Source: Clostridia bacterium (GTDB taxonomy: Bacteria > Bacillota > Clostridia > Oscillospirales > CAG-272). Taken from it: a DNA stretch of 44,701 nucleotides. This document shows, one piece after another, positions 24,866 to 44,263 of this stretch; positions within the stretch are counted from its first letter, which is position 1, and every line of letters starts with the position of its first letter. A program made the translations under genes and the position numbers. The notes beneath the pieces were generated by a model. It searched no databases, was not told the DNA's origin, and saw nothing but the letters and a program-made list of their open reading frames with translations. The DNA lies in contig JAFQPR010000012.1 in assembly GCA_017411605.1 (NCBI GenBank), positions 1-44,701 of the forward strand, written 5' to 3'.

Positions 24866-24894
24866 TTGACTTTTTTTAAAAATAAATATATAAT
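24866..24894 (+). promoter_or_regulatory. Sigma-A promoter of the matrix operon
   Basis: TTGACT (24866-24871) and TATAAT (24889-24894) are separated by 17 bp. The expected start near 24901 lies 10 bp before the riboswitch aptamer. Confidence 0.87.
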
Positions 24895-24908
24895 AGGTTC
24901 AAATATTT

Positions 24909-24976
24909 CAGCAAAGCATTTGAAAAGGTGTGACGCAAAGCTATAGGGGCCTCAAGTTAAGCCAGCCAGTTGCAGA
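24909..24976 (+). promoter_or_regulatory. Cyclic-di-GMP-I (GEMM) riboswitch aptamer
   Basis: The RNA has the conserved GACGCAAAGC core (24932-24941), a P1b helix CATTT/AGGTG capped by a GAAA tetraloop (24917-24930), a following GGCC...GCC arm with the tetraloop-receptor side (about 24947-24963), and a closing GCAA (24911-24914) / TTGC (24970-24973) helix. This order matches class I c-di-GMP riboswitches, and clostridial members look very similar. It lies between a sigma-A promoter and an intrinsic terminator and precedes an EAL-like gene, a known GEMM context. Confidence 0.92.
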
Positions 24977-25015
24977 TAAAGTACGTTTGCAGACTGTCTG
25001 GTGTTTTTTATTTTT
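24962..25015 (+). terminator. Riboswitch expression platform: intrinsic terminator
   Basis: CCAGCCAGTTGCA (24962-24974) pairs with TGCAGACTGTCTGG (24988-25001) with minor mismatches, followed by a T-rich run to 25015. The left arm contains the TTGC that closes the aptamer, so ligand-stabilised aptamer and terminator are mutually exclusive. I infer an ON switch in which c-di-GMP binding permits read-through. Confidence 0.82.
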
Positions 25016-25046
25016 CGAGGCGAATTTGAGGGAAGGGGGTAAAGAC

Positions 25047-26192
25047 GTGAAGCTCAAGGATATGGTAAAAGAAACTATCGAAAGCGGAATAAAGCCGATA
25101 GTTTTTGATTATGAAGAAGTTAAGCTTTTCGGAGAAGATAGCTCCGTTGTCCGCAGCTTTATGGTTATAAACAGTCTTGACCTCGGAACTCTGACGTATA
25201 AGCAGTACCGCTTCGTAGCGAGAAGAACGAGGCAGGGAAACCATATGGTAGAGCGGCATATACAGAAGCTTATCAGAATGATACCGAAGCTCCGCGAGAG
25301 AAACCCTGCGATACAGTGCTTTACGATACCCGTGTACGCAAGACTTCTCAAGGAGGGTGAGCTTGCAAGAATGCTCTTCGATGCGTTTGCTCTTTACCCC
25401 GAGATACCGCCCGAGTGCATATGCATAGAGCTTTCCGCGGATATTCTATATGAAAATATGGAGGAGTCCAAGGCGGGGATAGAGGAGCTGAGAGCGCTTG
25501 GAGTTAAGATAGCGATAAGCGAGGTGGGTGACGAGTTTTGCCCCGTGTTCAGGCTCTCGGAGCTTGAGTTTGACTATGCGTTTCTCGATGAATACGCGGT
25601 AGAAACGCTTGATAGAGACGATAGAGAGCGCGTTGCTAAAAGCCTTGTTAAATTCCTTCACTTCCTTGACGTAAAGGTTATTGCCCCTGGGCTTGACAGC
25701 GAGGCTAAGATAGACGGCGCTAAGGTCGTTGGATGCGACGGCTATACGACGGGTCCCATGCCCGACTTTGCTCCCAACGAGGAGGACTTCTTGCCCGACC
25801 TTCCGCCGCTTCCCGAGGATGAGGCAGAGGCTGCAGAGTCCGAAAAAACTGCTGAAGTGGCAGCAGAGGAAGCTCCTGCCGAGGATAAACCCTCCGAGCC
25901 TTTGGATGAGGCATCAAAGCCGGCTAAGACTAAAGGAAAAGTATCCGATGCAAAAAAGTCTGCCGAGCCTGCCGCGAAAGCGGAAGAGCCTTCGGCGCCT
26001 ACCCCTGCATTTGAGCTTGCGTTCGTACCTAAGCCGATGAGGCTGGAGCGAGCGTTTGCTCAGATAAAAAGACCGAAAAGACCGCTTTCTAAAAAGAAGC
26101 CTTATCACGGCAAGCGTCTTCAGAGGATAGAGTCCCCGATGGAAAAGAAAAAGCCGATACCGAAAAGGCGTAAGGAGGCGAGCGGCGTATGA
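25047..26192 (+). CDS. Degenerate EAL-domain protein with low-complexity basic tail
   Basis: A 381-residue protein. Residues about 15-235 align by pattern with EAL phosphodiesterases, but the catalytic residues are lost. There is no EAL motif. The DDFGTG region reads SEVGDEF, the Lys strand is altered, and the AEGVE position reads APGLDSE. It is likely a c-di-GMP-binding or scaffolding protein rather than an enzyme. Residues about 245-381 are disordered: first Pro/Ala/Glu-rich, then strongly basic with Lys/Arg/Pro clusters. GTG 25047 is chosen for GGAAGGGGG 7 nt upstream. Earlier in-frame codons, which would make the protein up to 39 residues longer, lie in the riboswitch or its terminator. 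Its stop overlaps the next ATG by 4 nt. Confidence 0.8.
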   Translation: MKLKDMVKETIESGIKPIVFDYEEVKLFGEDSSVVRSFMVINSLDLGTLTYKQYRFVARRTRQGNHMVERHIQKLIRMIPKLRERNPAIQCFTIPVYARLLKEGELARMLFDAFALYPEIPPECICIELSADILYENMEESKAGIEELRALGVKIAISEVGDEFCPVFRLSELEFDYAFLDEYAVETLDRDDRERVAKSLVKFLHFLDVKVIAPGLDSEAKIDGAKVVGCDGYTTGPMPDFAPNEEDFLPDLPPLPEDEAEAAESEKTAEVAAEEAPAEDKPSEPLDEASKPAKTKGKVSDAKKSAEPAAKAEEPSAPTPAFELAFVPKPMRLERAFAQIKRPKRPLSKKKPYHGKRLQRIESPMEKKKPIPKRRKEASGV

Positions 26193-26905
26193 ATATAAGA
26201 ACCTGGCGAAATAACGAAAAACGCGCAAGCTTCTTGCAGAGAACGGCTAAGGAAATCAGAACGTACAAGATGCAGAAAAGACTTCTCTTAACTGTTGTTG
26301 CAATGCTTCTTACGCTGACTGTTATTCTTTATACCATAGCTGCTCTTTATAAAAAAGAGGGAAGCTTCACCGTAAGTCTTGACAAGCACGACAGACTTGA
26401 ATACGGACTTACCCTTTGCGATACGAAGGGTATGGAAAGACCTACGAGCCAGCTCTCGGCTCAAATAGCAGAGCATATGACCAATATTTCGGGAGAGGAC
26501 ATTCCCGAAACGGTTGGCAGAGTAGACGGTGAGCATAACGGTGATAACTACATAGCCTTCACCTTCTACGTTCAGAACGGCGGAGAAACCGAGTTCAACT
26601 ATGAGTACGACGTTATAATGAAAAACGTAACGAACGATCTTGACAAGGCGATACGCTTAAGATTCTACGTTGACGACGTTCCCACCACCTACGCATACGT
26701 CGCGAGCGACGGAAATCCCGAGCCCGGCACGGAAAAATTCCATTCGAACAATATCATGGTCCACGGCAGAAGGGATGACTTTACCCCGGGCAGCCAGACC
26801 AAGTACACAATAGTCCTCTGGATAGAGGGCAACGACCCCGAATGCACGGATAAGCTTATCGGCGGCTCGATAAAGATAGATATGGAAATAAGCGTAGCTC
26901 ACTAA
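26189..26905 (+). CDS. Single-pass membrane protein with extracellular beta-rich domain
   Basis: A 238-residue protein. About 30 basic cytoplasmic residues precede one TM segment (about 31-55). The extracellular part is beta-rich and includes YIAFTFYVQNGGETEFNYEY, a pattern like the immunoglobulin-type fold of TasA/camelysin proteins. The N-terminus lacks the Ala-Trp-Phe cleavage region of the following four proteins, so it probably stays anchored. It may act as a fibre base or assembly factor; this is inference. It is translationally coupled to the EAL-like gene through an ATGA overlap. Confidence 0.7.
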   Translation: MNIRTWRNNEKRASFLQRTAKEIRTYKMQKRLLLTVVAMLLTLTVILYTIAALYKKEGSFTVSLDKHDRLEYGLTLCDTKGMERPTSQLSAQIAEHMTNISGEDIPETVGRVDGEHNGDNYIAFTFYVQNGGETEFNYEYDVIMKNVTNDLDKAIRLRFYVDDVPTTYAYVASDGNPEPGTEKFHSNNIMVHGRRDDFTPGSQTKYTIVLWIEGNDPECTDKLIGGSIKIDMEISVAH

Positions 26906-26941
26906 CTTTTGTTTACAAAACAAAGCAAATTTCGGTTTAAT

Positions 26942-26961
26942 TTCCGAGAAATCGGAATTTT
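26942..26961 (+). other. Intercistronic hairpin before the first matrix gene
   Basis: TTCCGA (26942-26947), a GAAA tetraloop and TCGGAA (26952-26957) are followed by four T residues. The 106-nt gap then becomes almost pure A up to AAAAAGGAG. It could be a leaky terminator or a stabilising 3' hairpin that sets expression of the matrix genes apart from the first two genes. Confidence 0.5.
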
Positions 26962-27011
26962 AAATAAAAAACAAAAAACAAAAATAAAAAAACAAAAAAG
27001 GAGAAAAAACA

Positions 27012-27740
27012 ATGAAACTCTCTCGCAAAATCCTCCCCGCACTCGCGATGCTTCTCGTATCTGCGATCATGCTCACCACAGCTTCATTCGCTTGGTTTGC
27101 TATGAACAGAAGCGTTGAAGCTAACGGAATGTCTGTTAATATTCAGTCAGACTCTGTTTATCTTTTGATTGCAGACGGTACAAAGACTGCTGAAGAAATT
27201 CAGACAGCTAAGGCAACGGTTGCTACCGGTACGCCCACTGGTACATTGGACATTTTCCCCACTGCTCACCACGCAACAAAGGGAAGTGAGTTCGATACTG
27301 TAGGCAAATGGTATACCAAGTCTGCTGATGACCCCTCCTCTTCCGCTTCTACAGGAAGTGAAACAGCATTGACCGATTTTAATGAATATGTAGTAAGATA
27401 TACATACAGCCTTGTACTTGCTGCAGGTTCAAACGAGGTTTCTAATCTTGTGTTAACTTCTTTCACCTTTACGGCAAGTGATGACAGCGCTGCAAGCGGT
27501 GCCGCACAGACTCTTGCTCCTGTTCGCGCTGTAATTGCATGCGGTGATAACTATGTTGAAGTTAAGAACGGAGATGAGGTTCCCTCTACTGTTCTTGCTG
27601 CAACTGTAAACGATACCGATGTTGTAACGCTCAAAGTATATATCTACTACGACGGAAATGACACATCCGTATATACAAACAACATAGCTAATCTTGAGGA
27701 CGTTGATTTCACCTTCACTGTTGGTGTTCCTAATACTTAA
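27012..27740 (+). CDS. SipW-type secreted matrix protein A (TasA/camelysin-like)
   Basis: A 242-residue protein with a SipW-type signal peptide: Lys/Arg N-terminus, hydrophobic core, then TTASFAWFAMN at about residues 21-31. That form resembles the signal region of TasA and camelysin. The mature domain is beta-rich, poor in Cys, and ends with VTLKVYIYYDGND followed by a final strand. It is the shortest of the four tandem proteins and lacks the YY repeat region, so it may be the core subunit. A very strong ribosome site (AAAAAGGAG) suggests high expression. The likely role is an extracellular fibre or biofilm matrix component cleaved by the neighbouring SipW-like peptidase. Confidence 0.8.
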   Translation: MKLSRKILPALAMLLVSAIMLTTASFAWFAMNRSVEANGMSVNIQSDSVYLLIADGTKTAEEIQTAKATVATGTPTGTLDIFPTAHHATKGSEFDTVGKWYTKSADDPSSSASTGSETALTDFNEYVVRYTYSLVLAAGSNEVSNLVLTSFTFTASDDSAASGAAQTLAPVRAVIACGDNYVEVKNGDEVPSTVLAATVNDTDVVTLKVYIYYDGNDTSVYTNNIANLEDVDFTFTVGVPNT

Positions 27741-27787
27741 GATTAAGACAAAATGACTATTGCTAATTAAAGCAAATGGAGATTATT

Positions 27788-29080
27788 ATGAAAATAAAGA
27801 ATAGAAGACTAATCGTTTCGGTAGTAATGCTACTTATATCTGCAGTTCTTCTTGGTACTGCTTCTTATGCATGGGTTGCTATGAATACCTCAAACGTAGT
27901 TGACGGTCTTGAGGTTGAAGCCAGCACGGATTCGCTCTACCTTGAAATTTCTACCAATGATGTAGATTACAGCACAAAGGCATCTTTTGGTAGCATACAT
28001 AAGACTCTAAGACTTATCACTCACGGATTTGTTTCTTCGGATAAAACTGAAATTGTTAAGCTTGACATCCAGCCAGCTTCCGGTAATTACTCAAGCGGCA
28101 ACTACTATATTAAAGCGGATAGCGATATAATTGACCCTGTTGCAGGTTCCGGCAGTGAATGGGAAGCAAATAACTTCTTGCTCGCTACCGACCTTGTTCC
28201 TGCTTCTGATCTTACAGGTTTATACAAGAACCCTGTATTTACCGAAGTAACGGCGAATGAATTATATGCTTCCGGTACTTATTACAAAGAGGTAAACAAG
28301 GCTTGCTACGCACCGGTTTCACTTTTGGTTGGAGATTCCGTTAAGGGACTTTTCACACTTGCTGATATTGATGCAGAAACTTCCGGTCAATATGATGGCA
28401 CTGAGCAATATTGGAAAGTTATTGACGGTAGCTACCACAATGTTACCAAGAATCTTACTATAGGCTCAGATTTGACTACACTTTATAAAGTTAATCCTGC
28501 TCCTGTATCTACTGAATCCAATTTCGACGGAGAGAATTATTACTATCTTGTAAACGGTAATGATTACTCCTGCATCGGTAAGCCCGCAGCTAGCGTTGCC
28601 ATTGCCGATTATCTTTATTGGGGCAGAGCATATTCTACCGATCCCACTCAGCATCAGGATGGTAATACGCTTAATATTGTAAACGATACAGATGGCGAAG
28701 CAAACTATTACTTCCACAATACTTTCTATATTCGTCAGGCTGAAGGCACTGTTTACGGTAAAAATTTCAAGGTTGAAAATGTAAAGATAGGTGGAGATTC
28801 TTCGGAAATTGCAAAGGCTCTTAGAGTACTGTTTGTTGCTACTTCCGATAACGGTGGCAGAGAAACTTGCGAATATGATTGCGGTGATAATTCTTACACC
28901 TATGGTGACGGTGGCGATAATTTCTTTGACGTTCTCCTTGGAGATGAGAAGGAAACGGTTACCATCGACGTATACGTTTACTATGACGGTAAAGATGATG
29001 TAGCAGATAACCAGACCGTAATTGATAACAATCAGAGTGTTGAGATAAAATTCTCAATTGACAATCACAATTATAACTAA
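27788..29080 (+). CDS. SipW-type secreted matrix protein B with YY repeats
   Basis: A 430-residue protein. Its SipW-type signal has GTASYAWVAMNTSNVVDGLEVEA at the junction, followed by a middle region with several short modules of the form FDG-x3-YY-x-V (for example NFDGENYYYLV), then a C-terminal module shared with the next two proteins: a YLYWGRAYS segment, FYIRQAEGT, and a terminal VTIDVYVYYDGKD strand. ATG 27788 is chosen because GGAG lies 6 nt upstream; the ATG at 27776 is part of that site. It is a paralog of its neighbours and has no anchor motif such as LPxTG. Confidence 0.8.
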   Translation: MKIKNRRLIVSVVMLLISAVLLGTASYAWVAMNTSNVVDGLEVEASTDSLYLEISTNDVDYSTKASFGSIHKTLRLITHGFVSSDKTEIVKLDIQPASGNYSSGNYYIKADSDIIDPVAGSGSEWEANNFLLATDLVPASDLTGLYKNPVFTEVTANELYASGTYYKEVNKACYAPVSLLVGDSVKGLFTLADIDAETSGQYDGTEQYWKVIDGSYHNVTKNLTIGSDLTTLYKVNPAPVSTESNFDGENYYYLVNGNDYSCIGKPAASVAIADYLYWGRAYSTDPTQHQDGNTLNIVNDTDGEANYYFHNTFYIRQAEGTVYGKNFKVENVKIGGDSSEIAKALRVLFVATSDNGGRETCEYDCGDNSYTYGDGGDNFFDVLLGDEKETVTIDVYVYYDGKDDVADNQTVIDNNQSVEIKFSIDNHNYN

Positions 29081-29096
29081 TTAATATCGAAAATAT

Positions 29097-29146: not shown

Positions 29147-31132
29147 ATGAAAATTAAAAATCAAAGAATATTCGCTGCATTATCCAGCCTTCTTATTTCG
29201 GCTATTATGCTTGCGACGGCATCGTTTGCTTGGTTTGGTCTGAATACATCGAATATAGTTGACGGACTTCAGGTGGAAGCTTATTCGGATTCTAACTATA
29301 TTGAGATTAAAAACAACAACAAAGTTGGAGATTATGACAAGAATGCGACGTTCAAGGAGTCGAGTGATATTCTCAGACTTGCAACGCACGGATTTCTTAC
29401 AGAAGGTGCGGCTTTAGAGCTTAAGAATTTCGTTCAGTTAGAGGCGTATGAGATTGTTAACCAGGATTACGATTCTACGTTGGATTATTATATTAAGACT
29501 TCAACGGGAGATTTGATAAAGTGCGAGTCTGATACTTTTTATGATTCTTCTTCAACGAAGGATTATTATAAAAACCCGGAGTTCGAGCTTGTTACCTCTG
29601 ATGAAAAAGTAACCGGAGATTATTACACGTACGCATCTAATACCTACACGAGCAAAAATCTTCAAGATGAGTCGGCAAAAGGTTATTACAAACTTGTTGC
29701 AGAAAATAAAGAGGGCGCTGACGCAACTTACGACGGTGCAAGCGTTTATTATTCTCTTACAACTGCAACAGTAGGTACGGAAACCGTTTCCACTTATACT
29801 GATGTTACTCATACCTTAGTAAAGACCAACAAGGATGAAAAACTTAACGGATATTGGGTTATCCAAAAAACTACCACAATGGATACTGTTCCTAAACCCA
29901 TCGGTGAAGAATCTATACCTGCCAAAGGTGAAGAGTATTATCTGAATTTCGGTGACGATAATTATTACTCTCTTGGCAAAATAGGTTCTGCTGAAAAATC
30001 CGTTTATCTTATTGATCTTACGTATCATAAAGATTTAGTAAAGCTGAAAGATGCATCCGCATCCGGAAATTATAACGGAAAAGGCTCTTACTATAACAAA
30101 GTTAAAAGCGATGTTTCAAATGATTCCTATAACTATATTCTGGCAACGGATTTGAAAAATGCAGATCTTGTTAAAGGATATTATAGGGACTTGAAATTTA
30201 CTCAAGTAACTTCAAGCGAAAACGTTACAGGAATTTATTATGAGATATATGAGAACGGCTTCAAGCGGATTGAAGTAAACAACAAATCCGCAAAAGGTAT
30301 GTATGCTGTATCTCATCCTGTTAAGCTTAATGCAACCGATATTGAGTACAGAGCGGGCTTGCCAATGGCAGAGCCTGACGATGCAAGATTCGACGGCACG
30401 GGCACCTATTATAAGGTGGACGGTGATAAGATAGCAAAGGTTACGCTTTCTCTTGGAACTGACCTTAGCAATTACTGTACTTTATCCGAAGCTGTTGTTC
30501 TAGGTCCTACGAGCGTCGGTGATGCAGAATATTACCTCAAGAGTAAAGGAGATTATTCTTGTCTTGGAACTCTTGGAACAAAAGCGGAGCCTCAGATACT
30601 TAAGAATTACCTTTATTGGGGTAGAACATATTCCGGTGTTGCTCATGATGCCGAGGCAGGAAACACTCTTTCAATACTTAGTGCTGACAAGGGTGACGGA
30701 ACGTACTATCATTTCGAGTCATTCACTATTCGTCAGGCAGAGGGAACAAATCCCGCTAAGAACCTTCGAGTAGCGAACGTGAGATTTGGCGGAGAAGCAA
30801 ATGCTTTAGCACCCGCTATCAGAGTTCTTATAGTTGCTCACAGTAATACGCAGTCTGAAGATCCCAGCGCGATAAGCGTGGCTCTCTATGATCCTAATGA
30901 AGAAACCGATACCGGAAAGACCGGCGGATTTCTTCAGGCGGACGGTAAGTATACTGAAACCGATATATTGTACGATGTTATTCTTGGTAACGAAGCTGAA
31001 GAGATAAACGTGGATATTTACGTTTATTTTGACGGTACAGACAAAGATGCTCACAATGAAAAGGTTGCTAATTTCAGCGGTCAAACTGTTGAAATTGAGT
31101 TTACTATTGACGAACTTGATTATAACGAATAA
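29147..31132 (+). CDS. SipW-type secreted matrix protein C, expanded YY-repeat protein
   Basis: A 661-residue protein, the largest of the four. The signal junction reads ATASFAWFGLNTSNIVDGLQ. Residues about 75-480 contain eight or more modules of about 35-45 residues, each ending in a Tyr-Tyr pair. Two are clearly related to each other: VTSDEKVTGDYY...SAKGYYK and VTSSENVTGIYY...SAKGMYA. The C-terminal domain (YLYWGRTYS, SFTIRQAEGT, VDIYVYFDGTD) matches proteins B and D. Sequence is Lys/Asp/Tyr-rich with no Cys apart from isolated ones. Ribosome site is weak (GTGGAT). It is probably a long fibrous or spacer subunit; Tyr pairs could support cross-linking, which is inference. Confidence 0.8.
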   Translation: MKIKNQRIFAALSSLLISAIMLATASFAWFGLNTSNIVDGLQVEAYSDSNYIEIKNNNKVGDYDKNATFKESSDILRLATHGFLTEGAALELKNFVQLEAYEIVNQDYDSTLDYYIKTSTGDLIKCESDTFYDSSSTKDYYKNPEFELVTSDEKVTGDYYTYASNTYTSKNLQDESAKGYYKLVAENKEGADATYDGASVYYSLTTATVGTETVSTYTDVTHTLVKTNKDEKLNGYWVIQKTTTMDTVPKPIGEESIPAKGEEYYLNFGDDNYYSLGKIGSAEKSVYLIDLTYHKDLVKLKDASASGNYNGKGSYYNKVKSDVSNDSYNYILATDLKNADLVKGYYRDLKFTQVTSSENVTGIYYEIYENGFKRIEVNNKSAKGMYAVSHPVKLNATDIEYRAGLPMAEPDDARFDGTGTYYKVDGDKIAKVTLSLGTDLSNYCTLSEAVVLGPTSVGDAEYYLKSKGDYSCLGTLGTKAEPQILKNYLYWGRTYSGVAHDAEAGNTLSILSADKGDGTYYHFESFTIRQAEGTNPAKNLRVANVRFGGEANALAPAIRVLIVAHSNTQSEDPSAISVALYDPNEETDTGKTGGFLQADGKYTETDILYDVILGNEAEEINVDIYVYFDGTDKDAHNEKVANFSGQTVEIEFTIDELDYNE

Positions 31133-31144
31133 AGGTAAGTTTTG

Positions 31145-32614: not shown

Positions 32615-33484
32615 ATGGATAAAGCAAAAGTGAAAAAAATACTTGGCATAGTTGCCAACGTGCTGATATGGGTGTTCGTAGTGATGTCACTGCTTACGAC
32701 CGTATTGGTGTTCGCGGCGCAGGGCAGTGAGGATGGCGTGCCCGCGATCTTTGGCAAAAGCTTAATAACAATTGAAACAAAGTCGATGGAAGATACCTAT
32801 AAGGTTGGAGATCTCGTCTTTATGAAGAAGCTTTCCGATGAAGATAAGCTTAATCTTAAAGTTGGTGATATCATAACCTTCCGTACCTCTGTTGACATCA
32901 ACGGTGACGGCAAGATCGGTGATATAAATACTCACCGTATCCACGAACACGAAGAAGGCTCAACGATTTTTGTAACAAAGGGTGATAATAACCCCAATCC
33001 CGATAACATAGCTACTTCGAATACCCCTGCATACACCGTTCACACATCCGATATTATCGGTATATGCAAAGAAAACGGCAGAATCGCAGGACTTGGAGCT
33101 GTTCTCGGCTTCCTTCGTTCCTCTCTCGGATTCTTCCTTTGCATAGTTCTTCCCTTGATATTGTTCTTCCTTTATGAGCTTTACAACTTTATTATGGTTG
33201 TCGTAAAAGAGAGAGCAAAGAAGGCTCCCGCAGGCGTAGCTCCCACGGTAGACGAAGAGGAGATCAAGCGCCGCGCTATCGAGGAATACCTTGCAGCGCA
33301 GAGAGCTAAAGAGGCTGAGGAGGAGATCAAGCGCCGCGCAGTAGAGGAATATCTCGCTTCGCAGAAGGCTGAAAGCTCCGCTCCCAAAGAAGAAACCGCT
33401 CCCGCAGACGAAGAGCCTGCAACCCCCGCGAGTGATGAATCATCCGAGGGAAATACAACAGAAGAAACAACAGACGAGAATTAA
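32615..33484 (+). CDS. SipW-like (ER-type, S26B) signal peptidase I, copy 1
   Basis: A 289-residue membrane peptidase. An N-terminal TM segment (about 10-33) is followed by the catalytic Ser57 in IETKSMEDTYKVGDLV. The usual bacterial Lys is replaced by His107 in NTHRI, and Asp124 lies in TKGDNNPNPD. This Ser-His-Asp arrangement is that of SipW and eukaryotic or archaeal signal peptidases. A second TM pair lies at about 165-195. The C-terminal tail holds two near-identical EEEIKRRA(I/V)EEYLA repeats and a Pro/Glu-rich end, probably cytoplasmic. It directly follows four secreted proteins with SipW-type signals and is presumably their processing enzyme. Confidence 0.9.
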   Translation: MDKAKVKKILGIVANVLIWVFVVMSLLTTVLVFAAQGSEDGVPAIFGKSLITIETKSMEDTYKVGDLVFMKKLSDEDKLNLKVGDIITFRTSVDINGDGKIGDINTHRIHEHEEGSTIFVTKGDNNPNPDNIATSNTPAYTVHTSDIIGICKENGRIAGLGAVLGFLRSSLGFFLCIVLPLILFFLYELYNFIMVVVKERAKKAPAGVAPTVDEEEIKRRAIEEYLAAQRAKEAEEEIKRRAVEEYLASQKAESSAPKEETAPADEEPATPASDESSEGNTTEETTDEN

Positions 33485-35287: not shown

Positions 35288-38200
35288 ATGAATAACAACT
35301 ATGAGAAATTCAGAAAAGAAGCGTTTTCGGCTCTCCGAGGACTCGCTAAGGAATGCCCTGAGTTTTCCGATGCGGAAATGCTTGTCGCTTCCGCGGAAAC
35401 CACGGCATCCTTAAAGAGAAATACCGTTCATAAAAATATTGACATAGAGTGGATAGAAAAGATAGAAGCGGCTTTGCCGTATATTGACACTATCGTAAGA
35501 TTCCCGAAGGTAGCTATAGAGGACGTTGACGAGATACTACCCGTAGAGCTTTCAAGGCATATCACCGAGAAGACCATCAAGCATCTCGCTCAGCATACTA
35601 ACTTAATTCTCGATATAACCGAGGACGGCGACGTTATACCTCAGAAGCTTCTCAACGTTTTCCACGACGAAACCGTTCTTACTTACGAGAATAAGTTTAT
35701 AAACACCCTTCTTGCCCGACTTTCCGCTTTTGTTGACAAGCGTTATAAAGCCCTTATGGGTACTAACGCCGTCGAGCGAAATTATAAGTTCAACTATCAT
35801 ACCGAGTTTGAGCATTTCGCAGGAACAGACGATGAAGGCGGTCGGAATACGGCTCGGATAGATCTCCGTATTGAGCTGACCTCACCTCTCAAAACAGAGC
35901 TATCCGAGCTTGACTCGGAGCTTTCCGAGCAGTATAACGCTACGCTCGCAAGGCTCAAAAAAATCAATCACGCAATTATTTCATTTATGTCATCGCCGTT
36001 CATACGCGCGATGGGAAGAAACTATATACGCCCACCCGTGATAAGAACTAACGCTATTCTTAAGAATAAGAATTTCCGTGAGTGCCTTAACCTGTGGGAG
36101 TTTATCGAAAGCTTTGACAAGACCGGATTTTACTTCGTTAACGACGAGTATTCCGAGATGCCGTCAAGCAATTATATATCAGACCTTTATTCCTCGGTTG
36201 CAATGCAGTATACGCATTTCTATAACGGAGTTGCGGAAAATCCCGAGGATAACAGACTTCTTTCGAAGAAGCATCTTCAGGAGACCTATCCCGAGTTCGA
36301 CCCCGATTTCGAGATAGAAGAGCTTGACGATTATATGGTATACGACTCGGAGTATAAAAAGCTCGTACCCGTATCCCGTCTTATGAATAACAGGAAAAAG
36401 CTCTCCGAGGATGAAAAACGCATAAGAATGGCTATCGTCGTCGCTCTCAGAGCGGACGAGGAGATGAATGCTGAGCGCCTGCGCCGCGAAGCCGAGTACA
36501 GACGTCTTGAAAAGGAAAGACGCCAGCGCGAGGAAGAGGAGGCAAGACGCAGAGCAGAGGAAGAAGCAAGAAGGCTCGCGGAAGAGGAAGCAAGAAGACT
36601 CGCCGAGGAAGAAGCGAGAAGACTTGCGGAAGAAGAGGCGAGAAGACTTGCCGAGGCGGCGAAAGCGCCCGTCGAGATCAGATACAGACGCTCCTTTATG
36701 TCGCGTCTTATCCAGGCAGAGCCACCGCTTCAGGATTATTATACAGAAATCAAAAACGAGCTTCTCTCGTACCGCGGCGTAAAGTCGAAGGTAAGCTGGA
36801 AGTGCGAAACGTATAAAAAGACTAAGGTGCAGATAGCGAAGATCGACGTTAAGGGTAAAACGCTCTACGTTTACCTCGCTCTCGAGCCTGAAAACTATAA
36901 AGATAGTAAATACTTCTTTACAAATGTAGCTAATAAACCGGGTTATGGCGAAACTCCGATGCTCCTCAAGGTCAAGAGCGAACGCGGTAAAAACCACGCG
37001 ATAGAGCTCATCCGCGAGCTTATGCAGAACCTTGGAATCGAGCGCTTTGAGCGCGAGTGGGAGGACTTCCACTTGCCGTATGAGGAAACTGATGCGCTTA
37101 TCGAGCGCGGACTTATCAAGGTCATCGTGCCTGCGGGCGTAGAGTTGCGTGAGGGTGATGAAACCGTCAAGACTAACCTTGACTTCCTTGATGAATACAA
37201 GGATAAGGAAAAGGATGCAGCCGCCTCAGAGGGAGCTGACGTTCCCGCGACCGCGGAACCCGAAATTTCCGAAGAGCCCGTAGCCGAAGAGGCTTCCGAG
37301 CCTACAGAAGAAGCTCCCGTCGAAGTGACTGCGGAAGAGGCTCTCGCCGAAGAGGCTGCCGAAACTGAAGCTCCCGCAGAGGAGCCCGAGCTGACGCTTG
37401 ACGATGCGTTGAAGCTGATAGCAGGCGAGGAGGTTATCCCCGAGCCCGTGGTAAGCGAAGCTACGCCCGAGGCTGTCGCAGAAGAGTCCGAAGCACCCGT
37501 TGAAATAAGATACAGACGTTCCTTCCTTTCAAGACTTATTCAGTCTGATGATGAGCTGAAGGACTACTACTCGGATATAAAGAACGAGCTTCTTTCATAT
37601 ACGGGTGTCAAGTGCAAGATCAGCTGGAAATGCGAAACCTATAAAAAGACTAAGGTGCAGATAGCAAAGATAGACGTTAAAGGCAAGATGCTTTACCTCT
37701 ATCTCGCTCTCGACCCCGATGAATACACAGACAGTAAATACTTCTTCACCAACGTTAAGGATAAGCCGGGATTTGCAGAAAATCCGATGCTCCTTAAGGT
37801 GAAGAGCGGCAGAGGAAGAAACCACGCGATAGAGCTCATCCGTGAGCTTATGCAGAAGCTCGAGATCGAGAGAATAGATCGCGAGCCCGAGAACTTCCGT
37901 ATGCCGTATGAGGACACGGATGCGCTTGTCGAGCGCGGACTTATAAAGGTTCTTCTCCCGAAGGGCGTGACCCTCGATGAGGACGATAAGACCGTACTTA
38001 CCGACGTTGAGGCTCTCCTTGCGGGACTCCGTCGGCCCGAGGATAAGGAAAAGCCCGCTCATGTTCCCACCGTTGAAGTTAAGGATGACGGCGCTACGGT
38101 CGTAGTAACCGTTCACGACGAGGCAGAGGCGGACGTTGTTCGCGAGGCGCTCGACGTTATTGAGGGGACGGGGCTTTCCTCAAGCGGAAGACGCGTCATT

Positions 38201-38557
38201 ATCGTTGATGCGAACGGAACTCCTATCGTAAGACGTAAGGATTACGGTGAGGACGAAATGGACTTCGCGTTCTCGGATACCGAGGGCGCGCCGAGATCCG
38301 CACTTATCATTCCCTATACGAGAGCGCAGTATCTTGCTCTCCCGAGAAAGAAGAAAAAGAGCGTTCTTATGAACGTAAAGAAGCTTCTTGAGTACAGAAA
38401 GATCAAGCGCTACAGAAATGCTCTTATCTCGCTTCATTCTTCGAATGAAAGAATTATCGAGAGAATAGCTAAGCTTGACGAAAGACTTGCCCTTGCGGCA
38501 AAGTTCCTGCCCGACTCAAAGCTCTGGGAAAAATGCGTATTCGGAGTTAAAGGTTAA
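35288..38557 (+). CDS. 1089-residue coiled-coil protein with duplicated domain, AAA+ partner
   Basis: A large, probably cytoplasmic protein. Residues 1-390 form an N-terminal domain whose stretch LTYENKFINTLLARLSAFV recalls DUF2357 proteins that accompany McrB-like ATPases (low confidence). Residues about 395-460 are an Arg/Glu/Ala coiled coil built from an 8-residue EEARRLAE repeat. A domain starting VEIRYRRSF at residue 462 recurs at residue 738; each copy is about 165 residues, with shared KNELLSY, KCETYKKTKVQIAKIDVKGK and NHAIELIRELMQ segments. Acidic linkers separate the domains. The C-terminal 110 residues are basic. AAAGGAG precedes the ATG. No enzyme motif was seen. Confidence 0.8.
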   Translation: MNNNYEKFRKEAFSALRGLAKECPEFSDAEMLVASAETTASLKRNTVHKNIDIEWIEKIEAALPYIDTIVRFPKVAIEDVDEILPVELSRHITEKTIKHLAQHTNLILDITEDGDVIPQKLLNVFHDETVLTYENKFINTLLARLSAFVDKRYKALMGTNAVERNYKFNYHTEFEHFAGTDDEGGRNTARIDLRIELTSPLKTELSELDSELSEQYNATLARLKKINHAIISFMSSPFIRAMGRNYIRPPVIRTNAILKNKNFRECLNLWEFIESFDKTGFYFVNDEYSEMPSSNYISDLYSSVAMQYTHFYNGVAENPEDNRLLSKKHLQETYPEFDPDFEIEELDDYMVYDSEYKKLVPVSRLMNNRKKLSEDEKRIRMAIVVALRADEEMNAERLRREAEYRRLEKERRQREEEEARRRAEEEARRLAEEEARRLAEEEARRLAEEEARRLAEAAKAPVEIRYRRSFMSRLIQAEPPLQDYYTEIKNELLSYRGVKSKVSWKCETYKKTKVQIAKIDVKGKTLYVYLALEPENYKDSKYFFTNVANKPGYGETPMLLKVKSERGKNHAIELIRELMQNLGIERFEREWEDFHLPYEETDALIERGLIKVIVPAGVELREGDETVKTNLDFLDEYKDKEKDAAASEGADVPATAEPEISEEPVAEEASEPTEEAPVEVTAEEALAEEAAETEAPAEEPELTLDDALKLIAGEEVIPEPVVSEATPEAVAEESEAPVEIRYRRSFLSRLIQSDDELKDYYSDIKNELLSYTGVKCKISWKCETYKKTKVQIAKIDVKGKMLYLYLALDPDEYTDSKYFFTNVKDKPGFAENPMLLKVKSGRGRNHAIELIRELMQKLEIERIDREPENFRMPYEDTDALVERGLIKVLLPKGVTLDEDDKTVLTDVEALLAGLRRPEDKEKPAHVPTVEVKDDGATVVVTVHDEAEADVVREALDVIEGTGLSSSGRRVIIVDANGTPIVRRKDYGEDEMDFAFSDTEGAPRSALIIPYTRAQYLALPRKKKKSVLMNVKKLLEYRKIKRYRNALISLHSSNERIIERIAKLDERLALAAKFLPDSKLWEKCVFGVKG

Positions 38558-39309
38558 TGCAAAAAACTAAGGTTATAAAAATCGTAAAGCTGACGCTCTC
38601 CGCCCTGTGGTGGGTAGTGCTGGTGCTGCTCGCGCTGCTGCTTATGAGCATACTCGGAGCAAAGCTCCGCGGCGAGGTGCCGAAGGTTTTCGGCTACTCG
38701 GTTATGCATATCATAAGCAATAGTATGGGTGAAACGATTCCCGAGGGATCGTATATACTGATAAAGGAAACCGATCCCGAGGATATAAAAAAAGACGATA
38801 TCATATGCTTTTTATCGGATGACCCGACGATCTACGGTTTTCCAAATACTCATAGAGTAGTCGAAGAGCCGATAATTACCGAGGGGGGCATAGAATTTGT
38901 TACCCGCGGAGATGCAAATCACGGCAACGATACCGTTACCGCTAAGTCGGATAGACTCGTCGGACGGTACGTTAAGACGATGGGTGGCTTGAAAAGCTTC
39001 TCGGATATGCTCGATTCGGGCGGACTTATCACTATAATGGGAGTGCTTCTCGTTGCGATGAGCATAATTTTCCTCTATTCATGGTTGATAAAACTGAAAG
39101 AGGAAACGGGAGCAACTACCACAAATTCGGATAAAAACGGTCAAAGTGAAGAAATAACTTGCGAAAAAGTCGAAAATCCCGAGCAAAACAGGGAAGATAT
39201 CTCCACTTTGATAAAAAGGCTCGAAGCCGAGGGCGTTGATATTGACGCTATGGCAGAGGAGCTTTCGCAAAAGGGAATAAATATCAGGGCGGATAGCTCC
39301 GAAGAATAA
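38557..39309 (+). CDS. SipW-like (ER-type, S26B) signal peptidase I, copy 2
   Basis: A 250-residue membrane peptidase with an N-terminal TM segment (about 13-34), catalytic Ser56 in IISNSMGETIPEG, His99 in NTHRV and Asp119 in TRGDANHGND. A second TM segment lies at about 155-177, with an acidic cytoplasmic tail. Like copy 1 it lacks the bacterial catalytic Lys. Its ATG shares a base with the stop codon of the previous gene (TAATG), so it is tightly coupled to the AAA+ module. It precedes a second block of two secreted proteins with a different signal junction (AWLAS), which it may serve. Confidence 0.9.
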   Translation: MQKTKVIKIVKLTLSALWWVVLVLLALLLMSILGAKLRGEVPKVFGYSVMHIISNSMGETIPEGSYILIKETDPEDIKKDDIICFLSDDPTIYGFPNTHRVVEEPIITEGGIEFVTRGDANHGNDTVTAKSDRLVGRYVKTMGGLKSFSDMLDSGGLITIMGVLLVAMSIIFLYSWLIKLKEETGATTTNSDKNGQSEEITCEKVENPEQNREDISTLIKRLEAEGVDIDAMAEELSQKGINIRADSSEE

Positions 39310-39341: not shown

Positions 39342-41654
39342 ATGGAAAAAAGCGCAGAAAAACAAAATCAAGCGCAGCTTGACCGTAAGCAGATACTTAT
39401 CCATGCCGGAAGAATTACGCTTATCGTAGCCGTTCTGCTTCTCGTTGTCTATTTCATATCGGTAATTGCATTCTCTTCATCCTTCTTTGAAGAGTCCTCG
39501 GAGAAAAACGCGCTCGTTTATTTTGACGAGGATATGGGAAAGATATCATTGCTCGTTGACGTGCATTACGGTAATCTTTTCGACGTTGCGGAAAAGGTAA
39601 AGTACGCGGAGTCGAGAGATGCGGTAAGCGCCGAGCTGCAAAAGTATATCGGCGTTGATCAGTTCGGTAACCTGAGATTTACCTCGGGCGGTAAGAATTA
39701 TGACGTATACGGCGCAGAGGTGCTCGAGGAGGCTGACGAGATGGTCGAGCTTCTCGCTCATCTCGACGAAAGAGGCTGCACAGACGTATATTACGATGCA
39801 ATGGTAAAAAAGGAATGCATAGCATTCTACGTTCCCGTTAAGGGTAACAAAAACGTTGACGGTATCATTTCTGTTCTCGAGGCGAGAAATATCATCAAGA
39901 TAGATGACAATATCAACGAAAAGGCTCTTGCTGTGGCTATCGTAAACGAGGACGGTCAGATATATGCGGATAAGCTCTCGTCGGGCTTTGTCGGCGAGTT
40001 TGGTGACAGTACTGTAAACCTTCGCGGAAATTACTACGATTTTATTCATAACGTAACCAGCAACAAGACCACCGTCGAGGGTGTTATGGAGCTTCTCCGT
40101 TCGGGAGAGAAGAATGCTGAGATGATCAGTATCTTCGGCAAGAATTACACGGTTGCATCAGCTCCCATAAAGAATTTTGATAATAAGCTAACCTTGGTTA
40201 TCCTCAGCGCCAGCGAGGGACTTGTCGCGACCGAGATGACTTATATCAGACATATCGTTACGATACTTCTTATAGCTATTCTTTCACTTGTGGTAAGCCT
40301 TGTATTTGCAATGCTCTTCAATAAGAAGCGCAAGGAAGCGATGTCAACGGCTAACCTCACGGACGATTCCGTCGGCTGCGCGAACGCGGAGCAGTTCAGA
40401 AGACGTACTATCGACACGGTTTACAGGACCTCGAAGAATTACGCCGTCGTCGTGTTCGGTATAAGGCAGTTCAATTATCTCTCGGAATCCCTCGGAGAAG
40501 AGAAGGTGACAGAGATATTGAGATTTATCTCGAGCGTTTTCGGCAACTTCTGCGACGATAACGAAACCTACGGATATGCGGGCAACGGAAGCTTCCTCTT
40601 CCTTTGCTATGCGGAAAGCGAAAGATACCTTAAGGATAAGATTCGTCTTATAGGTACGCTTTCAAATAAATATGAAGGACTTGAAGCAAGCGGTACTACC
40701 CTCAGATTTGAGGTAGGCGTATGCTTTACAAATACAAAAAGACGCTCCGTCAAGGAGCTTATCGACTGCGCTACCACGGCTTCGGGATATCCCAAAAAGG
40801 ATAATAAGCTCCCGTACTCGGTCTATAACGAGGAGATCGCCGTTGAAACAGCGCGTAACGAAAAAATCGAGGCTCAGATGGAAGAAGCTCTCGCAAACGG
40901 AGATTTCAAGCTCTTCCTTCAGCCGAAATATAACGTTAAAGAGGACAGAATTGATTCTGCCGAGGCACTCGTTCGTTGGTTTGACCCGAGCAGAGGCGAT
41001 TATATGTTCCCCGGCGAATTCATAAGTCTTTTCGAAACCAACGGATTTATTGTTAAGCTCGACCATTTCATATACCTTGAGGTGCTTAAGTATATGAGCC
41101 ATGCCGCAGAGCACGGCGATAAGATAGTTCCGATTTCTGTTAACGTATCGCGCGTTACGGCAAGCGCTCCTGATTTCCTTGAATTCTATATAGGAAATAA
41201 GCACAGATATAAGATCGGTGACGGATTTATCACTGTTGAGTTCACCGAGAGCTTCGCTATGGAAGACTACGATAAGATTTCTCATATAGTTGAGGAGCTT
41301 CATAAAAACGGAATGCGTTGCTCGATAGACGACTTCGGAACGGGTTATTCCTCGTTCAACATTCTGAAAAATATTCCTATGGATGAGCTTAAGCTCGACC
41401 GCTTCTTCCTCTTCGGCGGTATAAACAGAGAGAGGGACGATCTTGTTATCGAGATGATAGTAAATCTCGCAAAGAGTCTTGGAATGACCGTCGTTCAGGA
41501 GGGTGTTGAAACCAAGGATATGTTCGATAAGCTCGTTGGCTTCGGATGCGATATTATTCAGGGTTATTATTACGCAAAAGCTATCTCTCTTGAAGAGTAT
41601 AAGGTATTCCTTAAGACTAATACTTCAATTAAGTATAAATCTGTGGTCAAATAA
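39342..41654 (+). CDS. Membrane GGDEF-EAL protein, probable c-di-GMP phosphodiesterase
   Basis: A 770-residue protein. TM1 (about 23-45), an extracellular sensor domain (about 46-295, dCache-like in layout) and TM2 (about 303-327) are followed by a GGDEF domain and an EAL domain. The GGDEF site is degenerate (GNGSF at 414-418), so cyclase activity is unlikely. The EAL domain looks active: E541-A-L, NVS, EFTES, DDFGTGYSS, KLDR and EGVET are all present. It should hydrolyse c-di-GMP to pGpG and would lower the signal that turns this operon on, giving negative feedback. AGGAGG precedes the ATG. Confidence 0.92.
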   Translation: MEKSAEKQNQAQLDRKQILIHAGRITLIVAVLLLVVYFISVIAFSSSFFEESSEKNALVYFDEDMGKISLLVDVHYGNLFDVAEKVKYAESRDAVSAELQKYIGVDQFGNLRFTSGGKNYDVYGAEVLEEADEMVELLAHLDERGCTDVYYDAMVKKECIAFYVPVKGNKNVDGIISVLEARNIIKIDDNINEKALAVAIVNEDGQIYADKLSSGFVGEFGDSTVNLRGNYYDFIHNVTSNKTTVEGVMELLRSGEKNAEMISIFGKNYTVASAPIKNFDNKLTLVILSASEGLVATEMTYIRHIVTILLIAILSLVVSLVFAMLFNKKRKEAMSTANLTDDSVGCANAEQFRRRTIDTVYRTSKNYAVVVFGIRQFNYLSESLGEEKVTEILRFISSVFGNFCDDNETYGYAGNGSFLFLCYAESERYLKDKIRLIGTLSNKYEGLEASGTTLRFEVGVCFTNTKRRSVKELIDCATTASGYPKKDNKLPYSVYNEEIAVETARNEKIEAQMEEALANGDFKLFLQPKYNVKEDRIDSAEALVRWFDPSRGDYMFPGEFISLFETNGFIVKLDHFIYLEVLKYMSHAAEHGDKIVPISVNVSRVTASAPDFLEFYIGNKHRYKIGDGFITVEFTESFAMEDYDKISHIVEELHKNGMRCSIDDFGTGYSSFNILKNIPMDELKLDRFFLFGGINRERDDLVIEMIVNLAKSLGMTVVQEGVETKDMFDKLVGFGCDIIQGYYYAKAISLEEYKVFLKTNTSIKYKSVVK

Positions 41655-41663
41655 GAAAATTCA

Positions 41664-41716
41664 AGGGGCGGATATCAAAATGTGAGGCATGTGTCTTACG
41701 GTTTTAAACTGCCCCT
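41664..41716 (+). other. Structured gap before the second secreted-protein block
   Basis: AGGGGC (41664-41669) pairs with GCCCCT (41711-41716) across a 41-nt loop with internal structure. No proper T run follows. It may be an attenuator or processing site that sets expression of the last two genes. Confidence 0.35.
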
Positions 41717-41744
41717 GTTGTATTAAGAAAGGAGCACGCAGAGA

Positions 41745-43487
41745 ATGAGAAACAGCGTAAGATTAAAAATAATATCCACTGCAGTGCTCTTACTCTGCAT
41801 TGCGATATCTCTTACGGCGGCATCCGTTGCCTGGCTTGCGAGTATGATAACGGTTGATACCGCCGAGGATATTACTGCCAGCTCGATAGCATCTTATTTT
41901 GCATCGGGTGACGGAAAAACAGCGGAAACGGCATACGTAATCAAAACACCGACTCACCTTTATAACCTGGCATGGCTGCAGAACAGCGGCGTTTTTACCG
42001 AGAAAAAATACTTCAAGCTTGACGGCGCGATTGATATGAAGGGCGCTATTCACGGAGATGATATGACGGGCGGAGCGATACCTCCGATAGGTACGAAGGA
42101 TGCTCCGTTCATCGGAGAGTTTGAGGGCGGAGGCGCTGTTATCAGCAATCTTTGGGTGTCCACGGTTATGGATGACTGGAAGGAGCATCCCGAGGGATGC
42201 GAGGAGTATTCAAGCACTCACGTAGGTCTTTTCGGCGCTATCGGTGCAGGTGCCGTTGTAAATGATTTCATCCTCGATAAGGTAGAAATAAAATCGCACA
42301 TAAATAACGCGAAGGTCGGAATTATTTCGGGCTATGTTGACGGCAAGCTTTCAAACGTCGGAGTATATAACGGTATCGTTACGCTGACTGCGGGAACGGC
42401 TTGCTCGAGTGAATATACGTTGCTCGGTGAAATATCAGAGAATATGTCATGGACCGATAAACCGAGCGAAGAGGGCTCGGGCGGTGACCTTGTCATCGAT
42501 CCCAATGACTATGAGAATAACGGGGCAAGCGAATTCAATGACGTTGCAGCGGGAACAGCCGTTCAGGTTCCGTACTCTATAGCAGGCACAGCTTATTACG
42601 GCGGAGAGCTTGAGGTTCTCGGTGCGAATATATCCTCAAAGGCAATCTGGGATATGCGTAACTATAAAAACGGATCGGGTAACGTTACGTTTGTATCCGA
42701 CGGAAGCCGTGAGCACGAAAAGATTGCTAATGCATATGAACAGTACGGCCAGGGCGCGACTATTATTCACGCGCCAAACGCTCCTTTTAATACGTCGGGA
42801 AATCCAACCGGTACCGTAAGCGCAACGGATGAGAACGGAAACCCGATTTCGATTCCGCAGAGCGGAATATGGTTTAAGCCGCAAGGCGCGGGCAGAGTTG
42901 CTATGGCATTTGCCGCTACAAACCAATCGGCAAACAGATATATGATGCTTTATATCTGCGAAAGGGATTCCTCGGGAAATCTTAAAGCTGTAGATACCGT
43001 GGAATATATACTTCCTCTTAAGGAGTGTAAGTCGTTCAAGAACGGTCACATTGCTTATTACGAATATAACATATCCGAATCCGATGCAGGAAAATACGAA
43101 TACGTTATCGGCGCGACAAACGTTTCCGGACATAGCACAGATCAGGTAGGATTCTTTATCCTTATGCTTGCGGGAACTGATATTACAGGCGGTGACGGCG
43201 GCGCTTCGGATGACGGAAAGGTAATAGATAATATAGACTACGTAACCTCAACTACGGTCGATATCAGCGCTGCGGATTACGAAGTTCATAACACTATTCT
43301 CAAAATTGACGCAGGTACTGTTACGAGCGCGGGAAGCATTTATTATCTTGCGCGTGAGAGCGGCGGCGCATCGAAGGTCTACTACTCAAACCCTGCAAAT
43401 CTCGGAATAACGATAACCGATATTTCCGAGGGAAAAGAATCGCAGATGACCGATGAAGATGTCTTCGCTGACAGATTACAATCATAA
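41745..43487 (+). CDS. SipW-type secreted adhesin-like protein with GLUG-like segments
   Basis: A 580-residue protein. The signal region has an AASVAWLASMI junction at about residues 25-35. The mature start GDGKTAETAYVIKTPTHLYNLAWLQ (about 55-79) is the typical entry of proteins carrying GLUG or similar beta-helix repeats, and GLFGAIGAGAVVNDF and GIISGYVDGKLSNVGVY are GLUG-like turns (about 160-210). A large beta-rich region follows with no cell-wall anchor. It probably forms a surface adhesin or fibre tip. GAAAGGAG precedes the ATG. Confidence 0.8.
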   Translation: MRNSVRLKIISTAVLLLCIAISLTAASVAWLASMITVDTAEDITASSIASYFASGDGKTAETAYVIKTPTHLYNLAWLQNSGVFTEKKYFKLDGAIDMKGAIHGDDMTGGAIPPIGTKDAPFIGEFEGGGAVISNLWVSTVMDDWKEHPEGCEEYSSTHVGLFGAIGAGAVVNDFILDKVEIKSHINNAKVGIISGYVDGKLSNVGVYNGIVTLTAGTACSSEYTLLGEISENMSWTDKPSEEGSGGDLVIDPNDYENNGASEFNDVAAGTAVQVPYSIAGTAYYGGELEVLGANISSKAIWDMRNYKNGSGNVTFVSDGSREHEKIANAYEQYGQGATIIHAPNAPFNTSGNPTGTVSATDENGNPISIPQSGIWFKPQGAGRVAMAFAATNQSANRYMMLYICERDSSGNLKAVDTVEYILPLKECKSFKNGHIAYYEYNISESDAGKYEYVIGATNVSGHSTDQVGFFILMLAGTDITGGDGGASDDGKVIDNIDYVTSTTVDISAADYEVHNTILKIDAGTVTSAGSIYYLARESGGASKVYYSNPANLGITITDISEGKESQMTDEDVFADRLQS

Positions 43488-43540
43488 AATTGTATAAAAA
43501 AGAAAACTAAACTTTACAAAACAGAAGGGGAGTGGTGCAA

Positions 43541-44263
43541 TTGCTCGAGAAAATATCGTCAAGAGTTACTTTTGCTTTTACGGCGTGCGTGCTGATACTA
43601 AGCTTAATTGCATTCGCTTCAATAAACGGAAGTCTTGCCTGGCTTGCCTCGAATAAAGAGGTTTCGGCGAGCGGTATGCAGATAAAAATAAAGAATACCG
43701 TTGATATCGAAGCCTCGGTAAAAATACACGGTGTAACGGATATTGAGCAGGTTGAAGGCGTTGATACCAACTATATCTTTGATCCGAATAGTGAAAAGCA
43801 CGACCTTCCCAAGCACGACCCCAACGGTATCAGCTACGACCGTTATCATAAGGCTCTGGTTTTGCACTTCGAGATAACCGCGGGAGATGAGGACGTATCA
43901 GTGATAGTGGATATCGAAGCCTCGGGCGGTGTCACGACTGCGAATGACAATTTTATAAGCAATGCAGTATCATTTACAAAGGCAACGGTAGCAAGCGGCA
44001 CGTCCGTTGCTGTTAAGGATACCGAAGTTTATAGCTTTGTAACAGTATCCGGAAATAACGTTTCAAAAGAGTATACGCTCTCCCCGGTGTCTTCGGCTTC
44101 GCCTATAAATATTACGGCGGGAAGCACGGTTTCGTTTTATATGATAATCGAGTATAACGAGCCGTTTATAGAATATATAAACGCTTATATGCTGAATAAC
44201 TCCATCGCAAATACAACTGTGAATTACTCAAACGATTTGAAATTCGTTATAGATGTTGTATAA
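43541..44263 (+). CDS. SipW-type secreted protein, last gene of the operon
   Basis: A protein of about 240 residues with signal junction SINGSLAWLASNKEVSASGMQI, closely matching the AWLAS form of the preceding gene. The mature part is a single beta-rich domain with FEITAGDEDVSVIVDIEA and a late SFYMIIEYNEP strand, a TasA/camelysin-like pattern. The start is uncertain: TTG 43541 has AAGGGGAG at the right distance (8 nt), while GTG 43532 and 43535 lie within or next to that site. It probably forms a pair with the previous gene, as core subunit and adhesin. Confidence 0.75.
   Translation: MLEKISSRVTFAFTACVLILSLIAFASINGSLAWLASNKEVSASGMQIKIKNTVDIEASVKIHGVTDIEQVEGVDTNYIFDPNSEKHDLPKHDPNGISYDRYHKALVLHFEITAGDEDVSVIVDIEASGGVTTANDNFISNAVSFTKATVASGTSVAVKDTEVYSFVTVSGNNVSKEYTLSPVSSASPINITAGSTVSFYMIIEYNEPFIEYINAYMLNNSIANTTVNYSNDLKFVIDVV

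Follow-up and report, generated by a model that had tools for sequence, protein, structure and literature searches.

In the 44,701-nucleotide (nt) contig JAFQPR010000012.1 of a Clostridia bacterium (assembly GCA_017411605.1; GTDB lineage Oscillospirales, CAG-272), referred to here as the window, 13 open reading frames (ORFs) follow one another on the forward strand up to position 44263, behind a promoter-like site, a cyclic di-GMP (c-di-GMP) riboswitch of the GEMM-I class and a terminator. We lean slightly towards reading this operon as a c-di-GMP-induced SipW-type surface-fibre or adhesin system, in which an McrBC-like NTPase lacking a nuclease is coupled to the system's own signal peptidases. 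This DNA, our contig C87, belongs to a draft genome of 2.8 Mb that is 81.8% complete. Our ORF, profile and Rfam scans recovered every element listed in an earlier description of this DNA (the original prediction): the promoter-like site, the GEMM-I aptamer, the overlapping terminator and the 13 same-strand genes (Table 1).

Gene order, the NTPase pair and the signal peptidases

A profile of the AAA+ protein matched at least 529 relatives in the GTDB genome collection. The best 80 were retrieved, including Ruminococcus albus, R. flavefaciens and Eubacterium ruminantium, and their genes were labeled with profiles built on loci from the family of the source organism. The core order is EAL1-TMb-(SipW-type protein)-S26B-AAA-DUF2357-S26B, the S26B genes coding for signal peptidases. 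Where enough flanking sequence was available, 53/53 loci have an S26B gene upstream of AAA, DUF2357 lies downstream in 56/56 and a second S26B gene is also found downstream in 56/56, as a separate gene in 44 and fused in the others. EAL1 and TMb are each present in 46 of the 53 loci. Counting only immediate neighbours, S26B precedes AAA in 71/72 cases and DUF2357 follows it in 75/76. In 14 of these 76, S26B forms the C-terminal part of the DUF2357 ORF (S26B profile E values of 3.5e-61 to 7.2e-51), and all these fusions come from Ruminococcus or Oscillospiraceae. The idea of a single system thus withstands the refutation test that was set for it, as the gene order is conserved in other genomes, and the inclusion of the NTPase module in this system is supported at the sequence level. 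AAA matches at E 0.001 occur in 29 of the 98 genomes of the family, several of these matches being weak, and on 25 further contigs the same neighbours surround most of the strong AAA matches with long enough contigs. When 398 genomes from across the phylum were scanned at E 1e-60, a weak test of absence, the genome of the window was the only one among the matches listed (at most three candidates per genome), which suggests that the system is at least not common in the phylum.

The AAA+ protein scores weakly against the McrB profile (23.6 bits), and the profile of its family aligns with Escherichia coli McrB structures with E values of 1.1e-6 to 2.5e-6. Walker A, Walker B and an NNDD sensor motif are invariant in 19/19 sequences. 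The NNDD motif fits NxD followed by D, as in the NxD branch to which the NTPases of the CoCoPALM group (see below) belong; HMMER places it without gaps on NTAD of the E. coli protein, and a reading as NxxD is also possible. A simple hydropathy window, used for all transmembrane (TM) calls, detected a hydrophobic segment within the first 120 residues in 80/80 relatives, and a charged, helix-like stretch can be seen by eye after it.

The partner of 1089 residues narrowly exceeds the PF09823 (DUF2357) threshold (24.0 bits against 23.3) and contains a long charged run that looks heptad-like by eye. Together with the McrB structure matches and the N-terminal hydrophobic segment, this bears out the prediction of a membrane McrB-like AAA+ ATPase with a large coiled-coil partner. 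PF09823 was found in 15 of the 17 partner proteins scanned, and DUF2357 proteins can be as short as 397 residues. No nuclease family was detected in any of the 17 (Pfam, E 0.01), a result that leaves possible a nuclease at the level of fold with no sequence match. In searches with the DUF2357 profile, McrC was not among the matches; all were weak, and the best of them was a chromatin assembly factor 1 p90 fusion. The DUF2357 gene also contains a repeat domain (window positions 36680-38014), which occurs twice here and up to seven times in one relative (L091; L, G and C numbers are our labels for loci, genomes and contigs).

Three genomes of the family encode AAA-DUF2357-AAA sets without S26B (L062/L063 in G032:C7, L064 in G078:C20 and L065 in G069:C25), which adjoin proteins of 796-1499 residues with a Transglut_core domain. 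Membrane McrBC-like pairs may therefore serve more than one kind of surface-protein enzyme, which fits a role as a motor and is no proof of it.

Both peptidases, SPW1 and SPW2, exceed the TIGR02228 cutoff of 51.85 bits, and neither reaches the Pfam S26 cutoff. The equivalog of the Bacillus SipW protein (NF046067, cutoff 190) was not reached, with scores of 65.2 and 71.3 bits. The catalytic serine and histidine are present in both and are conserved in 72/72 upstream and 52/52 downstream S26B proteins (124 aligned relatives; the downstream count omits one ORF of 867 residues and the fused peptidases). By profile and residues, SPW1 and SPW2 are signal peptidases of the archaeal/endoplasmic reticulum type (S26B) with a Ser-His pair, in agreement with the two SipW-type peptidases originally proposed.

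Exported proteins, c-di-GMP leader and EAL proteins

The six exported proteins with SipW-type signals that had been predicted were all recovered with a strict pattern, which flagged 6 of the 38 non-overlapping ORFs of the window, all in the operon (S1 to S6). The pattern was made for this analysis and undercounts. In 14 of 26 neighbourhoods (14 contigs), it flagged 31 of the 205 ORFs situated up to 10 kb from AAA and 0 of 131 further away. One protein that it missed is found in R. albus 8, where a strong match to the S1 profile (E 1.9e-38) lies, by coordinates, on the opposite strand just upstream of EAL1. TMb shares a C-terminal domain with the S1 family (hhalign 97.4%, E 1.1e-11, 115 columns), and the S1 profile matches 65/65 ORFs labeled TMb. 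S5 is partly similar to proteins of 204-1610 residues at five other loci.

The operon had been described as a putative TasA-like system, a term that is supported for the signal region and the peptidase and not for the mature domains. When compared by profile with the TasA/M73 set, S1 aligned over 33 signal columns only and TMb gave no significant alignment. PF12389 (TasA/CalY) has no match in the genome, which is 81.8% complete. Membership in the TasA/CalY family proper was rejected on these two results. Searches of PDB sequences with the TMb and S1 profiles yielded no meaningful match, the S1 family matched nothing in NCBIfam, and TMb had only stray single-member matches in Pfam. In TasA, which is cleaved by SipW, phenylalanine occupies position P2′ according to PMC10269814, and the FAWF/YAWF motifs would fit this arrangement, provided that cleavage follows the alanine.

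The leader begins with a promoter-like TTGACT-17-TATAAT sequence, followed by a c-di-GMP-I aptamer that aligns to the full model of Rfam RF01051, above its gathering score. The final 17 nt of the aptamer also belong to a terminator hairpin, behind which comes GTTTTTTATTTT. As a whole, the 156-nt leader folds no better than shuffled sequences (z -0.25). Of 17 aptamers, 16 have a terminator-like hairpin that overlaps the 3′ strand of the aptamer; two of these hairpins (L082 and L083) begin deep within the aptamer, and three overlap by 6 nt only. The aptamer without a terminator is at position 9037 of L091. Because the hairpin overlaps the aptamer 3′ strand, a ligand-bound aptamer and a formed terminator should be mutually exclusive, and the leader is therefore probably an ON switch. 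The first gene was previously placed at 24930, within this leader. We replaced that start by a GTG at 25047, downstream of the leader, which has a G-rich ribosome-binding-like stretch in front of it by eye and is most likely the translation start of EAL1.

Rfam scans covered 20 of the 80 retrieved loci, 14 with the layout of the window and six with a Ruminococcus-type layout (two R. albus, one R. flavefaciens and one E. ruminantium isolates plus two metagenome-assembled genomes). GEMM-I lies directly 5′ of EAL1 in 12 of the 14 window-layout loci, the misses being L093 and L098. L091 has three such elements, ahead of EAL1, of S26B and of a gene with a SipW signal. The proposed c-di-GMP control is supported by the aptamer score, the terminator overlap and the position of GEMM-I before EAL1. 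Over the 98 family genomes, GEMM-I matched 34 times, or about 0.16 per Mb. GEMM-I is followed by SipW-system genes in 14/20 cases in AAA-bearing genomes versus 2/14 in the others (Fisher p 0.0019); this count took in the next 8 kb of 30 GEMM-I elements plus four already within AAA loci, used a wider SipW pattern than the 10-kb ORF count above, and placed G047 among the genomes without AAA despite a weak match of 28 residues, its reassignment giving 14/23 versus 2/11.

The genome of the window has one further GEMM-I element, on contig C24 (L181, G000:C24, 8650-13707). Three exported genes (coding for 300, 1105 and 244 residues) follow it, with N-termini that look SipW-like by eye. The strict pattern flagged none of them and the wider pattern one, so that this element enters the count of 14/20 only under the wider pattern. 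It is probably a second part of the same regulon. In other genomes, we observed several related arrangements. G020 carries two near-alike copies of the front of the system (L182 and L183, on C121 and C12), with exported proteins of 1858 and 2393 residues and extra GEMM-I elements before S26B and exported genes; both contigs end within the start of the AAA gene. In G063:C56 (L184/L205), a genome without an AAA match, tandem GEMM-I elements precede S26B genes and exported-looking proteins, which we take as a simpler c-di-GMP/SipW-type operon. In G047:C17 (L185), GEMM-I elements precede genes that resemble a Tad-type pilus set by eye.

Both EAL domains that had been predicted are real by profile, and they differ in their catalytic residues. 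EAL1 was compared with 15 of its 51 collected relatives, with EAL2 of the window as the reference. All 16 members have other residues in place of four that are catalytically important (Glu of EAL, Asn, first Asp of DDFG, Lys), whereas 2/16 keep the Glu of EGVE and 12/16 one other Glu. The possibility of two active EAL phosphodiesterases was rejected on these grounds. In EAL2, 23-24 of 24 sequences retain the catalytic residues, and the GGDEF motif is broken; the protein is probably a c-di-GMP phosphodiesterase.

Proposed mechanism and competing explanations

At high c-di-GMP, the folded aptamer would capture the 5′ arm of the terminator and allow read-through into the operon. The products would include exported subunits and adhesins with SipW-type signals, cut by the two dedicated S26B peptidases. 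TMb would be a likely membrane base or chaperone, because it shares a domain with the subunits yet has a plain TM anchor. A membrane-tethered ring of the McrB-like AAA+ protein and a nuclease-less, McrC-like DUF2357 activator would cooperate with the peptidases, and NTP hydrolysis might drive or gate the release or assembly of processed subunits, as the gene order and fusions suggest. The physical joining of the DUF2357 activator to a peptidase in Ruminococcus points to the cleavage or assembly step as the place where NTP would be spent. EAL2 could provide feedback by lowering c-di-GMP, and the degenerate EAL1 might serve as a receptor for c-di-GMP or as the partner of another protein. It is only tentatively that we take this further, to a new class of energized Gram-positive surface-fibre machine. 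In it, a restriction-type McrBC NTPase, having lost its nuclease and settled at the membrane, would be coupled to a SipW-type signal peptidase (in Ruminococcus by fusion) and would use NTP hydrolysis within the cell to power ordered cleavage and assembly of subunits on the outside, under direct control by the c-di-GMP riboswitch.

Several observations weigh against this interpretation. GEMM-I is absent from all six Ruminococcus-type loci in the Rfam scan, and whole genomes of the Ruminococcus/Eubacterium type contain it in only 2/6 cases, on contigs other than that of the system. The undercounting signal pattern finds no SipW-type protein in the retrieved stretch of 18/46 loci, mostly Ruminococcus. 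In the S1 family, similarity to the TasA/M73 profiles is confined to the signal region and does not reach into the mature domains. The topology of the R. albus and R. flavefaciens fusions is uncertain, as these proteins carry an additional hydrophobic stretch around residue 600. Related AAA pairs occur without S26B, beside the transglutaminase-like proteins mentioned above, and conversely the G063 operon is of the SipW type and has no AAA pair, which means that SipW processing in itself can do without the motor. Separately, gaps of 106, 132 and 212 nt separate genes within the run of 13, so that internal promoters are possible and the operon may not be a single transcript.

These gaps and possible internal promoters are what speaks for unrelated operons that became adjacent by chance, an explanation that is scarcely credible and that we rejected, given that the order and the fusions are conserved among the 80 loci and in the family's own genomes. 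The McrB-like/DUF2357 pair could also be a phage-defence or restriction module within a surface operon. McrBC is a restriction family, and the AAA+ protein and the DUF2357 repeat domain match the PADLOC entries PDC-M26A (124.6 bits) and PDC-S18 (59 bits). However, PDC labels denote candidates and not tested functions, no nuclease family was found in the 17 DUF2357 proteins, the AAA+ proteins have their hydrophobic N-terminal segment throughout, and the pair has S26B neighbours at all testable loci and is fused to a peptidase in some. We thus rejected this role, which appears very improbable.

Two further explanations keep the link with export. In one, AAA+/DUF2357 would act in quality control, pulling precursors left uncut, used signal peptides or subunits that have stalled out of the membrane and so sparing the cell a heavy load of exported subunits. 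An anchored ATPase, presumably cytosolic, next to peptidases would suit such a task, and a SipW-type operon without AAA is what would be expected of an accessory function. It is nevertheless unlikely: the 56/56 pairing, like the fusions of DUF2357 to a peptidase, points to a role during cleavage and not after it, and, leaving aside the fused S26B, neither the AAA nor the DUF2357 proteins matched a domain for proteolysis or degradation. In the other, no polymer would be made; the system would secrete and display large adhesins, and S1-S4 would be coat proteins of the cell wall or membrane. SipW-signal proteins of about 1800-2400 residues at some sister loci and InlB-type repeats in one large neighbouring protein (L044) are in line with this, but medium-size paralogous subunits together with a membrane-anchored member that has their domain in common fit a polymer with a base, and we judge the absence of a polymer to be quite improbable.

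Surroundings of the operon and relation to known systems

Table 1 Features of the operon and its upstream neighbour (window coordinates)
Feature	Position	Strand	Evidence or remark
Multi-TM GGDEF protein, possible diguanylate cyclase, upstream of and outside the operon	23303..24547	+	GGDEF motif by eye
Sigma-70-type promoter-like site	24866..24894	+	11/12 consensus matches; consensus match only
c-di-GMP-I (GEMM-I) riboswitch aptamer	24900..24977	+	RF01051, 51.8 bits, gathering 35
Terminator hairpin and U-tract, 5′ arm is the aptamer 3′ strand; probable ON switch	24961..25014	+	
EAL1, degenerate EAL-domain protein with charged C-terminal tail	25047..26192	+	PF00563, 72 bits
TMb, single-TM protein, C-terminal domain in common with the S1 family	26189..26905	+	hhalign
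S1, exported, SipW-type signal ASFAWF	27012..27740	+	Signal pattern
S2, exported, SipW-type signal ASYAWV	27776..29080	+	Signal pattern
S3, exported, SipW-type signal ASFAWF	29147..31132	+	Signal pattern
S4, exported, SipW-type signal ASFAWF	31142..32482	+	Signal pattern
SPW1, S26B (archaeal/SipW-type) signal peptidase	32615..33484	+	TIGR02228, 69.1 bits; Ser/His kept
Membrane-anchored McrB-like AAA+ NTPase	33697..35253	+	E. coli McrB structures, E ~1e-6
DUF2357 (McrC-N-like) partner, coiled-coil-like run, two repeat-domain copies	35288..38557	+	Pfam; no nuclease domain found
SPW2, second S26B signal peptidase	38557..39309	+	TIGR02228, 77.3 bits; Ser/His kept
EAL2, TM-sensor-TM-degenerate GGDEF-intact EAL, probable phosphodiesterase	39342..41654	+	PF00563, 179 bits; sensor by eye
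S5, exported, SipW-type signal ASVAWL	41745..43487	+	Signal pattern
S6, exported, SipW-type signal GSLAWL	43532..44263	+	Signal pattern

A gene related to the upstream GGDEF protein is also found upstream of the system in G037. Behind the operon, two direct repeats of 118 nt (97%) with inverted arms occupy positions 44366-44701 and reach the contig end; they are possibly the reason why the assembly stops there. A set of genes resembling SpoIIIAA-AH by eye at 6839-11692 suggests that the source organism is a spore former.

LapD-type systems place surface adhesins under the control of c-di-GMP. The operon resembles them in that a degenerate EAL protein and dedicated proteolysis come together in a surface-protein locus controlled by c-di-GMP; no adhesin or protease family is known to be common to both, and the likeness is one of analogy only.

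The SipW-TasA matrix system of Bacillus subtilis has a dedicated S26B peptidase accompanied by adjacent exported proteins with SipW-type signals, as is the case here. The SipW-BsaA matrix system of Clostridium perfringens (PMC7395162) shows this arrangement too. Unlike what is described for these two systems, the operon combines several subunits, two peptidases, an AAA+/DUF2357 pair and a c-di-GMP-I riboswitch, and the mature domain of S1 is unrelated by profile to the M73/TasA set. With the McrBC Type IV restriction system of E. coli, it has in common an McrB-related AAA+ core and DUF2357, as in McrC. It differs by the lack of a detected PD-(D/E)xK nuclease (0/17), by the membrane anchor and by S26B fused behind DUF2357 in some ORFs.

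Among the closest known systems is a group named CoCoPALM by Bell et al. in 2024 (PMC11090510), which comprises McrB-like NTPases with an FtsB-like TM/coiled-coil fusion that are linked to signal peptidases. That paper, which also treats DUF2357 as part of McrC homologs, gives the group one paragraph and defers the remainder to a later publication. Among the open-licence papers listed by our searches, titles and abstract openings showed nothing on the combination of parts found here, apart from Bell et al. and its preprint, and no functional test of the system. Were our interpretation correct, a motor family of DNA restriction would have been recruited into a machine for protein export or assembly, and gut and rumen Clostridia, including the cultured R. 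albus and R. flavefaciens, would possess such a surface-protein system. The claim that no described system combines these families has to be narrowed, as CoCoPALM already links McrBC-like pairs with signal peptidases. Like this group, the operon has an McrB-like NTPase with an N-terminal TM segment and a coiled coil (by eye), a DUF2357 partner (PF09823 in 15/17) and signal peptidase genes nearby, with S26B linked at every locus that had enough flank. The part of the claim that stands concerns the c-di-GMP riboswitch, the SipW-type substrates, the pseudo-EAL gene and the DUF2357-peptidase fusion, of which we found no mention in the CoCoPALM text of PMC11090510. We thus regard our finding as a variant of a named and uncharacterized group; if it is correct, CoCoPALM would gain a concrete, testable role, with the c-di-GMP riboswitch as a handle for induction.

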